Of a stretch of DNA of 64,000 nucleotides, positions 60,013 to 63,873 are shown piece after piece; the stretch's first letter is position 1; every line of letters begins with the position of its first letter. Source of the stretch: Halopiger aswanensis (GTDB lineage Archaea > Halobacteriota > Halobacteria > Halobacteriales > Natrialbaceae); contig NZ_RAPO01000003.1 of NCBI RefSeq assembly GCF_003610195.1, positions 248,001-312,000 of the forward strand. The letters are read 5' to 3'. A program made the translations under genes and the position numbers. Under the pieces are notes generated by a model. It was given only the letters and a program-made list of their open reading frames with translations. It was not told the origin of the DNA and made no database searches.

Positions 60013-61476
60013 ATGGGATTAGATTTCACACCGAAGACATACGACGAAATTCCAGCGGACAAGCGGCCGTCTCTGGGAGAAGCGCTCGTTCCGATCGCCG
60101 CGATGTTGCTGTTCCTCTCGGTCGGAATGATCTACCTCGAGATGGACCCCCAGATGCCGCTGCTGTGGGGGATCGCCTTCGCGGGGCTGTTCGGCCGGTA
60201 CTACTTCGGCTACGACTGGGAGCAACTCTACGACGGGATCGGCCGGAGCATCCTGATGGGGCTGCAGGCCATCCTCATCCTGTTCGTCATCTACATGCTG
60301 ATCGCGTCCTGGATCGACTCCGGGACGATCCCGTCGCTGATGTACTACGGGCTCGAGTTCCTCTCGCCGCAGATTTTCCTCCCCTTCACGATCATCATCT
60401 CGGCGGTCGTCGCCTTCGCGATCGGCTCCTCGTGGACGACGGCCGGGACGCTCGGCGTCGCGATGATCGGCATCGGGAGCGGCCTGGGGATTCCGGAGCC
60501 GATGACGGCCGGTGCCGTCCTTTCCGGTGCGTACACCGGTGACAAGAACTCGCCGCTCTCCGACACCACGAACCTCGCCGCCGCAGTGACGAACACGGAC
60601 CTGATGGACCACATTCGGGCGATGCGCCCCGGTACCGCGATCGCCTTTGGGATCTCGCTGGTCCTATTCGTCCTGCTGGGGCTGAACGCGAGCGGGACGA
60701 TTCCCGCCGACCGCATCGCCGAGATTCAGGGCGGGCTCTCGAGTAGCTACGCCGTCTCGCCGTTTACGTTCCTCCCGCTCGTGTTGACGTTCGCGCTCGC
60801 GTTTTACGGCCTCCCCGCGCTGCCGTCGCTCGGCGCCGGAATCTTCGCCGGCGTCGCGGTCAGCACCGTCGTCCAGGGGACGGGCTTCGCCGCCGCCTGG
60901 AGTGCCGTCCACTACGGGACCGAACCCGAGACGGGCGTCGACCTCACGAACGAACTGCTCGCGAGCGGCGGGCTCGAGGGCTCGATATGGGTCGTCTCCA
61001 TCGTCGTCGCGGCGCTGGCGCTGGGCGGCATTTTGCAGGAAACCGGCGTGCTGGCGTCCATCGCGTACCACATCGGGCGGGCCATCAGCAGCGTCGCCGG
61101 TCTGACCGCCGGGACGGCCGTCGGGACCATCGCGATGAACTTCTTCTCGGCGGAACAGTACATGGCGATCGTCGTTCCCGGAATGACCCTCCAGAATCTG
61201 TACGACGAGTACGACCTCGAGAGTCGGAACCTCTCGCGGGCGGTCGAGGCCGCCGGGACGACGACCTCGGCGTTCGTGCCGTGGGGCTCCGGCGGAGTCT
61301 TCATGGCCTCGGCGCTCGGCGTGCCGGTGATCGAGTACGCACCCTACTACTTCTTCGGCATCCTCTCGCCGCTGGTGCTGATCGCGATGGGCGCGACGGG
61401 CTGGGGAATCTTCTACAAGGACAGCCCCGAACGGGACGCCCCGGTGGGAGCCGCATCGACGCCTGCCGAAGACTGA
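60013..61476 (+). CDS. nhaC: NhaC-family Na+/H+ antiporter
   Basis: A 487-residue membrane transporter with about eleven helices. The family core is AIGSSWTTAGTLGVAMIGIG, then GAVLSGAYTGDKNSPLSDTT, and the symmetrical second half GTTTSAFVPWGSGGVFMA. NhaC proteins exchange Na+ for H+; some homologues exchange amino acids or malate. The ATG follows TTTTGTAATC (about 59975-59984). Important for sodium export in a halophile; substrate assignment is by family. Confidence 0.93.
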   Translation: MGLDFTPKTYDEIPADKRPSLGEALVPIAAMLLFLSVGMIYLEMDPQMPLLWGIAFAGLFGRYYFGYDWEQLYDGIGRSILMGLQAILILFVIYMLIASWIDSGTIPSLMYYGLEFLSPQIFLPFTIIISAVVAFAIGSSWTTAGTLGVAMIGIGSGLGIPEPMTAGAVLSGAYTGDKNSPLSDTTNLAAAVTNTDLMDHIRAMRPGTAIAFGISLVLFVLLGLNASGTIPADRIAEIQGGLSSSYAVSPFTFLPLVLTFALAFYGLPALPSLGAGIFAGVAVSTVVQGTGFAAAWSAVHYGTEPETGVDLTNELLASGGLEGSIWVVSIVVAALALGGILQETGVLASIAYHIGRAISSVAGLTAGTAVGTIAMNFFSAEQYMAIVVPGMTLQNLYDEYDLESRNLSRAVEAAGTTTSAFVPWGSGGVFMASALGVPVIEYAPYYFFGILSPLVLIAMGATGWGIFYKDSPERDAPVGAASTPAED

Positions 61477-61540: not shown

Positions 61541-61591
61541 ATGATCGACCAGCGCGAACGCGAACGACGACTGCCGGAGGAGCGCCGATGA
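61541..61591 (+). CDS. 16-codon leader ORF coupled to ferredoxin
   Basis: ATG at 61541 begins a 16-residue, Arg/Glu-rich frame (MIDQRERERRLPEERR) whose TGA overlaps the ferredoxin ATG (ATGA at 61588-61591). ACTTTTCC near 61511-61518 lies about 27 bases upstream, so a leaderless message would begin at this ATG. The ferredoxin ribosome-binding site lies inside the small frame. Translational coupling is inference. Confidence 0.5.
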   Translation: MIDQRERERRLPEERR

Positions 61592-61992
61592 CGGAGTACG
61601 ACGTCATCCTCGAGTGGCCGGACGGCCGAACCGAAACGATCGACGCACCGGAAAACGAGTCGGTCCTCGACGCAGCCCAGCGGGCCGGCGTCCGGTTGCC
61701 GTACGACTGCCGGAAAGGGACCTGTATCACCTGCGTCGGTCGGTTGCTCGAGGTCGACGGCGACGACGCCGGAGACAACGAGGCGACGGACGAGGATTCC
61801 GACGCGGACGGCGCGGTCGGCTCCCCCAATCCCGCCGACGCGTTCGCGTACCGACGGTCGCCCGCGGCGCTTACCGAGCGCGAGCAAACCGACGGCTACG
61901 TCCTGCTGTGTATCGCCCAGCCGCGGGCCGATTGCCGCCTCGAGGTCGGTCCCCAGATCCGCGCACAGGTCGGCGACAGTCCCTGGGCGTAG
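61588..61992 (+). CDS. 2Fe-2S ferredoxin (plant type), first copy
   Basis: A 134-residue electron carrier. Cluster ligands are C-RKGT-C-IT-C (about residues 38-46) and the late Cys in VLLCIAQPRADC. Between them is an acidic insertion typical of haloarchaeal ferredoxins. GGAGG (61576-61580) lies seven bases before the ATG, so this gene is SD-led. It stands 83 bases before the SBP56-like gene, and its closest relative in the window is the ferredoxin just after that gene. Confidence 0.94.
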   Translation: MTEYDVILEWPDGRTETIDAPENESVLDAAQRAGVRLPYDCRKGTCITCVGRLLEVDGDDAGDNEATDEDSDADGAVGSPNPADAFAYRRSPAALTEREQTDGYVLLCIAQPRADCRLEVGPQIRAQVGDSPWA

Positions 61993-62075
61993 TTCTCGCG
62001 GCGGCCCTCGGTCCTTCTCGGTCCCGACGGACCACCCCGGACAGACTTATCTACTGCTTCGTGGTCGGTACTAGT

Positions 62076-63485
62076 ATGAGTGACGCTAGCACACCCGGCG
62101 ACGCGGAACCGGAGCCGGAACACGACCACGAGCACCACCACGACCACGAGGGGCCCGGCTACGCGACGCCCCAGGCCGCCATCGAGGAGGGAGAGCGGGA
62201 GAAACTCGCCTACGTGATGAGCCTCTACGTCGGCACGGACGTCGACGCTTCGGACTTCGTCGCGGTCGTCGACCTCGATCCCGAGTCCGAGACGTACTGC
62301 GAGATCGTCGACCGGATCGAACTGCCCAACCGCGGCGACGAACTCCACCACTTCGGGTGGAACGCCTGCTCGTCGTCGTGTCACATGGAGGGCCTCGAGC
62401 GCCGGCACCTGATCGTGCCCGGCCAGCGCTCCTCGCGGATCCACGTGATCGACGCGGCGGACCGACGAAACCCGGAACTCGAGACGGTCATCGAACCCGA
62501 GGAGGTCTTCGAGTACGACCTCTCGGCGCCCCACACCGTCCACTGCATCCCGGACGGCGAGATCCTCATCAGCATGCTCGGGGACGCCGACGGCGACCTG
62601 CCGGGCGGGTTCCTCGAGCTGAACGACGACTTCGAGATCGAGGGACGGTGGGAGCCGCCGGGCGAGATCGAGATGAACTACGACTACTGGTACCAGCCCC
62701 GCCAGAACGTGATGGTCTCGAGCGAGTGGGCCGCGCCCAAAACCTACTACCCGGGCTTCGACCTCGAGGACGTCGAGGAGGGCAACTACGGCCACCAGCT
62801 TCACTTCTGGGACTGGGAGGACGGCACCGTCGAGCAGACGATCGACCTCGGCGAAGAAGGACTGATCCCGCTCGAAGTCCGGTTCCTCCACACGCCGGAA
62901 TCGACCCACGGGTTCGTCGGGGCCGCGCTGTCGTCGAACATCTTCCACTTCTGGCGCGATCAAACGGGCGAGTACCGCGCCGAAAAGGTCATCGACTTCG
63001 AGGATCGCGAGCACCCCGACTGGGACATGCCCGTGCCCGCACTGCCGACGGACATCCTGATCTCGATGGACGACCGCTACCTGTTCGGCTCGAACTGGCT
63101 CCACGGCGACGTCTGGATGTACGACATCTCGGACCCGGCGAACCCGCGGCGGGCTGACTCGCTGTCGGTCGGCGGCACCTTCGGCGACGTGCAGGAGGTC
63201 CAGGGCCGGGAACTGTCCGCCGGACCGCAGATGATCCAGCTTTCGCTGGACGGCGAACGGCTCTACTGGACGACCTCGCTGTTCTCCTCGTGGGACGAGC
63301 AGTTCTACCCCGAGGAGGGCGAGCGGGGTTCGGTGATGCTGAAAGCCGACGTCGACCCCCGAAAGGGGACGATGGAACTCGACGAGGACTTCCTCGTCGA
63401 CTGGGGCGAGTGTCCCGACGGGCCGGCTCGCGCCCACGAGATCCGGTGGCCGGACGGCGACTGCACGAGCGACGTCTGGCAGTGA
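62076..63485 (+). CDS. SBP56 / methanethiol oxidase-like protein
   Basis: A 469-residue beta-propeller-type protein of the selenium-binding protein family. Human SELENBP1 and bacterial MtoX oxidise methanethiol to H2S, H2O2 and formaldehyde, and MtoX is a copper enzyme. The family region GDELHHFGWNAC-SSSC is present, as are HTVHCIPDG, GYGHQ-like NYGHQLHFWDW and RFLHTPESTHGFVGAAL. The His-rich head (EHDHEHHHDHEG) could bind metal. CTTATC at leaderless distance supports ATG 62076. Activity here is inferred from family. Confidence 0.93.
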   Translation: MSDASTPGDAEPEPEHDHEHHHDHEGPGYATPQAAIEEGEREKLAYVMSLYVGTDVDASDFVAVVDLDPESETYCEIVDRIELPNRGDELHHFGWNACSSSCHMEGLERRHLIVPGQRSSRIHVIDAADRRNPELETVIEPEEVFEYDLSAPHTVHCIPDGEILISMLGDADGDLPGGFLELNDDFEIEGRWEPPGEIEMNYDYWYQPRQNVMVSSEWAAPKTYYPGFDLEDVEEGNYGHQLHFWDWEDGTVEQTIDLGEEGLIPLEVRFLHTPESTHGFVGAALSSNIFHFWRDQTGEYRAEKVIDFEDREHPDWDMPVPALPTDILISMDDRYLFGSNWLHGDVWMYDISDPANPRRADSLSVGGTFGDVQEVQGRELSAGPQMIQLSLDGERLYWTTSLFSSWDEQFYPEEGERGSVMLKADVDPRKGTMELDEDFLVDWGECPDGPARAHEIRWPDGDCTSDVWQ

Positions 63486-63489
63486 GCGG

Positions 63490-63873
63490 ATGGGCGACGA
63501 GACGCGGCGCCACGACGTCACCCTCGAGTGGCCCGACGCCGACCGCGAGCGGCGGACGATCCGGATCGGCGAGGACGAGACGGTCCTCGAGGCCGCCGAG
63601 CGCGCCGACATCGCCCTGCCGTTCGGCTGTCGGACCGGCGCCTGCGGCACCTGTACGGGGCGGTTGCTCTCGAGCAACGGTAACGGAGACGCCGACGAGG
63701 GGACGCCCGACGTCGCCGACGCCTTCGCGTACCGGCGGCCGCCGCGGGCGCTGAAGGAGCGCCACCGCGACACCGGCTACGTGCTGCTGTGTATCGCCGC
63801 GCCGCGGACCGACTGTCGAGTCGCCGTCGGCTCGAGCGTCCACGCCGAACTGGTGGAGAATCCCTGGAAGTAG
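63490..63873 (+). CDS. 2Fe-2S ferredoxin (plant type), second copy
   Basis: A 127-residue ferredoxin beginning four bases after the SBP56-like stop, so certainly in its operon. Ligands are C-RTGA-C-GT-C (about 47-55) and the late Cys in VLLCIAAPRTDC. It is clearly paralogous to the ferredoxin at 61588, sharing DAFAYRR and GYVLLCIA. A pair of ferredoxins around one enzyme suggests that electrons leave or reach the enzyme through them. Confidence 0.94.
   Translation: MGDETRRHDVTLEWPDADRERRTIRIGEDETVLEAAERADIALPFGCRTGACGTCTGRLLSSNGNGDADEGTPDVADAFAYRRPPRALKERHRDTGYVLLCIAAPRTDCRVAVGSSVHAELVENPWK

Follow-up and report, generated by a model that had tools for sequence, protein, structure and literature searches.

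The window analyzed in this study comprises 64,000 nucleotides of Halopiger aswanensis (contig NZ_RAPO01000003.1, positions 248,001 to 312,000) and harbors three consecutive genes on the forward strand. The first of them, Fd1 (61588..61992, ATG at 61588), encodes a plant-type [2Fe-2S] ferredoxin of 134 aa and is followed by the gene of an SBP56-family protein of 469 aa (62076..63485, ATG at 62076) and by a second plant-type [2Fe-2S] ferredoxin gene, Fd2 (63490..63873, 127 aa), whose ATG at 63490 is located four bases past the SBP56 stop. All three reading frames and their coordinates, as given in a preliminary description of this region, hold after refinement of the starts, and so does the paralogy proposed there for the two ferredoxins, which are about 55-56% identical and both exhibit the plant-type C-x4-C-x2-C...C motif. 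Fd1 and Fd2 matched the Fer2 domain (Pfam: PF00111) with 55 and 54 bits, respectively, and carry the four cluster cysteines, which are retained in ~98-99% of the dereplicated SBP56-linked ferredoxins, whereas against the housekeeping haloarchaeal ferredoxin Fer model (NF041393, cut-off 150) they reached only 34-38 bits. In addition to the two ferredoxins, the neighborhood of the window SBP56 includes a long convergent ORF reading as a PAS-domain histidine kinase and an NhaC-type Na+/H+ antiporter (60013-61476) located between a RIO1 kinase and Fd1. The antiporter is found likewise in about a dozen Natrialbaceae loci and is missing from others, so we read it as a mobile or lost neighbor.

The gene-neighborhood analysis was performed on 293 Halobacteriales genomes, 99 of which harbor SBP56, and gene calling on stretches of ~17 kb around 107 SBP56 places recovered 106 full-length SBP56 genes. 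In 101 out of these 106, a homologous ferredoxin gene lies on the same strand no more than ~160 bp downstream, mostly overlapping the SBP56 stop or starting within 20 bases of it, an arrangement that is far beyond chance. Clustering of all neighboring genes revealed the ferredoxin as the only constant neighbor of SBP56 in haloarchaea; a wider operon was considered and rejected, because the remaining neighbors (RIO1, NhaC, LigA, and ribosomal proteins with NDK) vary by family and look like chance synteny. All five SBP56 genes lacking the ferredoxin are second copies from Natrialbaceae and fall into a single group. The linkage was also observed in the reverse direction, since the window Fd2 used as a query against 72,556 plasmids matched six records, in five of which the match lies beside an SBP56 gene; the sixth is a linked-type ferredoxin on a plasmid of Natronococcus sp. 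AD-5 (L350:2935-3315), with no SBP56 within 3 kb. Fusion of ferredoxin and SBP56 into a single protein was not found among the loci examined.

Several individual haloarchaeal loci showed additional features. In one of them (L171; G051 C1 814231-817301), SBP56 is present in two pieces ~1.7 kb apart, as if from an insertion. A membrane protein of ~230 aa with HxxxE motifs (HRVIEGG, HVALETA) is encoded 3' of the SBP56-ferredoxin pair, or of a ferredoxin-less SBP56, in about 16 haloarchaeal loci from several families (L113:9724-10428 and 16 homologues, e.g., L104, L145, and L166); the 234-aa protein searched against Pfam produced no match, and a ZIP-like permease for metals is one possible identity. 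The pair of Natronorubrum aibiense is followed by a gene for an FAD oxidoreductase of the Pyr_redox_2 family (L205:6820-7872), possibly acting as a ferredoxin reductase or in sulfide handling.

The preliminary description had regarded both ferredoxins as dedicated to SBP56 and had called for a search for their co-occurrence with it in haloarchaeal genomes; this expectation stands for Fd2, given the 101 linked loci, but not for Fd1. Outside Natrialbaceae, Fd1 was found upstream of SBP56 at a single locus, which belongs to another family, and at least ten genomes contain Fd1 without any SBP56 (G036, G071, G112, G122, G179, G189, G232, G235, G246, and G279). In the ferredoxin tree, the Fd1 proteins form one clade (support 98) adjoining the Natrialbaceae Fd2 (93), and Fd1 therefore looks like a duplicate of Fd2. 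The SBP56-less genomes keep Fd1 in a slot between the RIO1 kinase and LigA, the same slot that in the window also houses SBP56 and Fd2, and in one genome (L172) a remnant of SBP56 is retained there. The persistence of Fd1 in these slots, in combination with this remnant, suggests that SBP56-Fd2 was lost repeatedly while Fd1 was kept, and we propose that Fd1 acquired or kept another role. Upstream of the SBP56 start, the A+T content of 93 aligned regions peaks between -29 and -26, and a TTWW motif was present in 38 of them, compared with 8/93 in a control stretch; the window sequence displays a TATA-like box, TTATCT (62047..62052, forward strand), 24-29 bases 5' of the start codon. Positions -29 to -26 are the usual place of the TATA box for a leaderless haloarchaeal transcript, and SBP56-Fd2 thus looks like a separate transcription unit with its own TATA box. 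Being a family-restricted duplicate that survives without SBP56 and precedes the SBP56 TATA box, Fd1 was accordingly rejected as an equal partner in a three-gene block.

The window SBP56 protein aligned with its Pfam family (PF05694) at 667 bits over profile positions 2-452 of 453, against a cut-off of 34, and its AlphaFold model, predicted with moderate confidence (pLDDT 67, pTM 0.76), matched the beta-propeller 2ECE of Sulfolobus tokodaii, the one relative with a solved structure that sequence searching retrieved, with a TM of ~0.8. The most pronounced conserved feature is a set of six residues, H91, H92, H153, H156, D203, and E267, which correspond to H73, H74, H137, H140, D189, and E252 of human SELENBP1; mutation of these abolishes the activity of the human enzyme (PMC10362175), and all six are invariant in the alignment of 194 ferredoxin-linked SBP56 proteins. 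Three cysteines, C98, C157, and C463, were conserved in 194, 194, and 193 of these 194 sequences, respectively, the sole exception being a gap in its row, and these correspond to the three cysteines reported as required in the cluster 1 methanethiol oxidases of Rhodobacteraceae (PMC10936201); the window protein exhibits DGDCT in place of GGDCT. The N-terminal tail (62076..62150; codons 1-25), which precedes the GPGYA motif, is rich in His, a feature that is conserved, with at least four His ahead of GPGY in 82 of 95 haloarchaeal proteins; in the bacterial homologues a CC motif occupies the same position. The suggestion that this tail could hold copper is consistent with such conservation, and a metal-loading role is our inference; in human SELENBP1, selenite is bound mainly by Cys5/Cys8, close to the N-terminus (PMC10362175). 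The protein scored 127.6 bits against the MtoX model NF052453, far below its curated cut-off of 650, and no SCO1/SenC or MauG genes adjoin the SBP56 gene in the window.

Beyond the haloarchaea, close SBP56 relatives followed by an annotated 2Fe-2S protein were detected in plasmid records of Phaeobacter and Paracoccus, and scanning GTDB genomes with a bacterial-type query yielded 80 loci, all of them (80/80, a count that depends on their selection by similarity to a ferredoxin-linked query) with the order SBP56-ferredoxin-CoA_binding_2. These loci spread through SAR11, SAR116, Rhodobacteraceae (roseobacters), Granulosicoccaceae, Acidimicrobiales, and other taxa. The CoA_binding_2 protein (e.g., L227:9718-10601) is encoded twice in many SAR11 genomes, and upstream of the pair in the same SAR11 locus we found ergothioneine-type genes (L227:2373-4552), namely EgtD and an EgtB-like start recognized by eye. 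In broader samples, taken from one alphaproteobacterial class and from the phylum Actinomycetota, the ferredoxin occurred only with SBP56 members of one superclade, and none of the 35 sampled rows outside it had a ferredoxin beside SBP56. This superclade comprises all ferredoxin-linked SBP56 proteins with an SH-aLRT of 97, in a tree built by a quick method whose long branches outside the superclade limit the detail; on the same tree the linkage label requires 3 changes, against 37 in shuffles. Distances between SBP56 proteins correlated with those between their ferredoxins (r 0.94 overall, 0.58 in haloarchaea, and 0.84 in bacteria, with a shuffle mean of 0), a correlation that partly reflects shared organismal descent. 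The SBP56-ferredoxin pair of haloarchaea and bacteria thus has a shared ancestry, with an identity of ~55% between the two SBP56 branches. Most actinobacterial members of the superclade (L197, L314-L321, including Rubrobacter), like the Natrialbaceae paralogue group described above, are without the ferredoxin. The window SBP56 itself belongs to the ferredoxin-linked superclade and is probably a cytoplasmic methanethiol oxidase.

The bacterial pair is often found in clusters resembling the DMSP demethylation pathway, the end product of which is methanethiol (PMC5739008). Downstream of the pair, Phaeobacter inhibens P30 encodes a CoA-binding protein, a rhodanese, an MBL protein whose best match is a sulfur-transferase/dioxygenase model (persulfide-dioxygenase-like), an enoyl-CoA hydratase, an acyl-CoA synthetase, and a DmdA-like protein; the last scored 377 bits against the NF009133 equivalog, below its cut-off of 410, while being the top hit among GcvT-like models (next 236). 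About 11 of the 80 bacterial loci, from several classes, contain high-scoring DmdA-like genes near the pair, and 39/80 contain an enoyl-CoA hydratase gene, including cases in SAR11 where it lies directly upstream. In Paracoccus seriniphilus, the third gene encodes a PpoB2 copper chaperone, and a formaldehyde-removing S-(hydroxymethyl)glutathione dehydrogenase is encoded close by. No methanethiol-producing gene adjoins the haloarchaeal pair, and a search for methionine gamma-lyase in the window's genome gave no match above the model cut-off.

Taking these observations into account, our leading, still tentative, reading is that SBP56 and Fd2 form a two-component cytoplasmic oxidase of methanethiol (or small alkyl thiols), in which the ferredoxin donates electrons, most likely in turnover. 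In such an enzyme, the conserved His/Asp/Glu residues of the beta-propeller would hold copper, methanethiol would be bound via the C-terminal cysteine C463, and an O2-dependent C-S cleavage would release formaldehyde together with sulfur in reduced form, either sulfane sulfur or sulfide. Electrons from Fd2 would enter the propeller at a copper/O2 intermediate or a cysteine persulfide, and the net products would be H2S and water, not H2O2; we infer the substrate in haloarchaea, the copper, and both the direction and the purpose of the electron transfer. The charges of the partners differ, with a median of +1.9 per 100 aa for the linked ferredoxin against -4.5 for SBP56 in bacterial loci, and -2.8 against -13.9 in haloarchaeal loci, which fits docking. 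A more specific and bolder version, which we consider rather unlikely, would turn the entire cytoplasmic clade into two-component methanethiol monooxygenases driven by ferredoxin (CH3SH + O2 + 2 reduced Fd + 2 H+ -> HCHO + H2S + H2O). If true, haloarchaea and the dominant DMSP-degrading plankton (SAR11, SAR116, and roseobacters) would share a beta-propeller copper oxygenase that receives its electrons from ferredoxin, and reports of H2S would be reconciled with those of no H2O2.

Second to electron supply in turnover we rank a reactivation analogous to that by XylT-type ferredoxins, in which SBP56 would use O2 alone and the ferredoxin would re-reduce an over-oxidised copper center or cysteine; it is less probable in our judgment, yet the evidence fits both readings alike. 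A precedent is provided by a plant-type, net basic ferredoxin encoded in the same operon as the oxygen-using catechol 2,3-dioxygenase (PMC2590616 and references therein), and the linked ferredoxins described here are likewise basic in bacteria and far less acidic than their SBP56 in haloarchaea. The assayed methanethiol oxidase of Roseobacter denitrificans OCh114 (RdMTO), which yields sulfane sulfur and no H2O2, and related enzymes degrade methanethiol in vitro without ferredoxin (PMC10936201), so the ferredoxin is not strictly required; its loss in some lineages also fits an accessory role. The near-universal tight linkage across archaea and bacteria, however, exceeds what would be expected of an accessory. 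The slow turnover of RdMTO was considered as a sign of the missing ferredoxin and rejected, as other enzymes in the same study were about as slow (PMC10936201).

A role of the ferredoxin in maturation, that is, in building the SBP56 cofactor by copper loading or by formation of a tryptophan-derived quinone, stands behind these readings and appears improbable. It would parallel the mtoX clade, whose SCO1/SenC and MauG neighbors accompany a proposed TTQ cofactor (PMC5739008), and it would agree with the conservation of four tryptophans (W205, W218, W341, and W406) in 194/194 ferredoxin-linked proteins and with the copper chaperone following the pair in Paracoccus, but the human and Rhodobacteraceae enzymes are active when obtained from E. 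coli without such partners (PMC10362175, PMC10936201).

Electron flow in the opposite direction, with SBP56 passing methanethiol electrons to the ferredoxin in place of O2 and needing neither O2 nor H2O2, is also quite unlikely, although a dedicated redox carrier does adjoin an oxidoreductase. Plant-type ferredoxins have potentials of about -0.3 to -0.4 V and we estimate the thiol/aldehyde couple at about -0.2 V, so that electrons would have to move uphill. The characterised SBP56 enzymes, moreover, consume O2 (PMC5739008), and the bacterial hosts are largely aerobic marine plankton. Both the O2 requirement of known family members and a ferredoxin potential that is probably too low count against electron acceptance; the aerobic hosts and the use of O2 also leave the anaerobic thiol oxidation envisaged in the preliminary description unsupported. 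The H2O2-free reaction considered there fares better in one respect, given that H2O2 was not found with the related Rhodobacteraceae enzymes (PMC10936201), which would also suit electron acceptance, but those enzymes worked without a ferredoxin, so a reaction of this kind does not need one. Finally, we consider it very unlikely that haloarchaea use the pair for a different substrate, be it a thiol or a compound of selenium or sulfur, with methanethiol oxidation confined to the bacterial branch. The divergence between the branches, the lack of a methanethiol-producing neighbor in haloarchaea, and the several alkyl thiols accepted by SELENBP1 (PMC10362175) speak for this reading; the conservation of all catalytic residues and a ferredoxin partner that is the same by descent speak against it.

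The preliminary description had stated that no system with this layout is described, which agrees with the searchable literature: the word ferredoxin does not occur in five methanethiol oxidase papers (PMC5739008, PMC10936201, PMC7157515, PMC9769926, and PMC12262181), and no publication on SBP56 in haloarchaea, or on a selenium-binding protein with ferredoxin in Halobacteria, was found in the open-access journal literature. The enzyme family is already known, and the new part is the conserved ferredoxin partnership. Electron handling in this family is disputed, with H2S and H2O2 (PMC5739008, PMC10362175) reported against sulfane sulfur and water (PMC10936201), and a ferredoxin that co-evolved with one enzyme clade offers a direct route to testing it. 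SAR11, SAR116, and roseobacters possess the same gene pair, and in these bacteria DMSP-derived methanethiol belongs to the marine sulfur cycle; ferredoxin-free assays may consequently have missed the native reaction. The occurrence of SBP56 in about one third of the sampled haloarchaeal genomes suggests thiol removal as a trait of these organisms.

Among known systems, the XylT-type ferredoxins (PMC2590616) resemble the linked ones in being small, of the plant [2Fe-2S] type, and encoded beside one oxygen-using enzyme, although the partner that they reactivate is catechol 2,3-dioxygenase and not SBP56. Human SELENBP1 (PMC10362175), a copper-dependent thiol oxidase, shares with the window protein the six activity residues and the presence of metal- or selenium-binding residues near the N-terminus, but it is without a known ferredoxin partner, and H2O2 and H2S are among the products described for it. 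MtoX of Hyphomicrobium sp. VS and Ruegeria pomeroyi (PMC5739008) belongs to the same SBP56 family, with conserved His ligands and a methanethiol pathway context that is likewise common to the ferredoxin-linked clade; it is, however, periplasmic with SCO1/MauG neighbors, whereas the window protein has an acidic, His-rich start and a ferredoxin neighbor instead, and the two lie on separate branches of the SBP56 tree. RdMTO, from cluster 1 of Rhodobacteraceae (PMC10936201), shares the cysteine motifs GWNAC, HTVHC, and GDC with the window SBP56, which differs from it by the ~55% identity to the bacterial branch and by the His-rich tail where bacteria have CC. According to the mutant numbering in that study, the cysteine spacing is 61/305 in RdMTO and 64/316 in RlMTO; in our alignments, a 61/306 spacing occurs in 86 ferredoxin-linked bacterial SBP56 proteins and 64/316 solely among ferredoxin-less bacterial proteins. 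By its spacing RdMTO most likely belongs to the ferredoxin-linked clade, and it is most likely a ferredoxin-linked enzyme that was assayed without its predicted ferredoxin.
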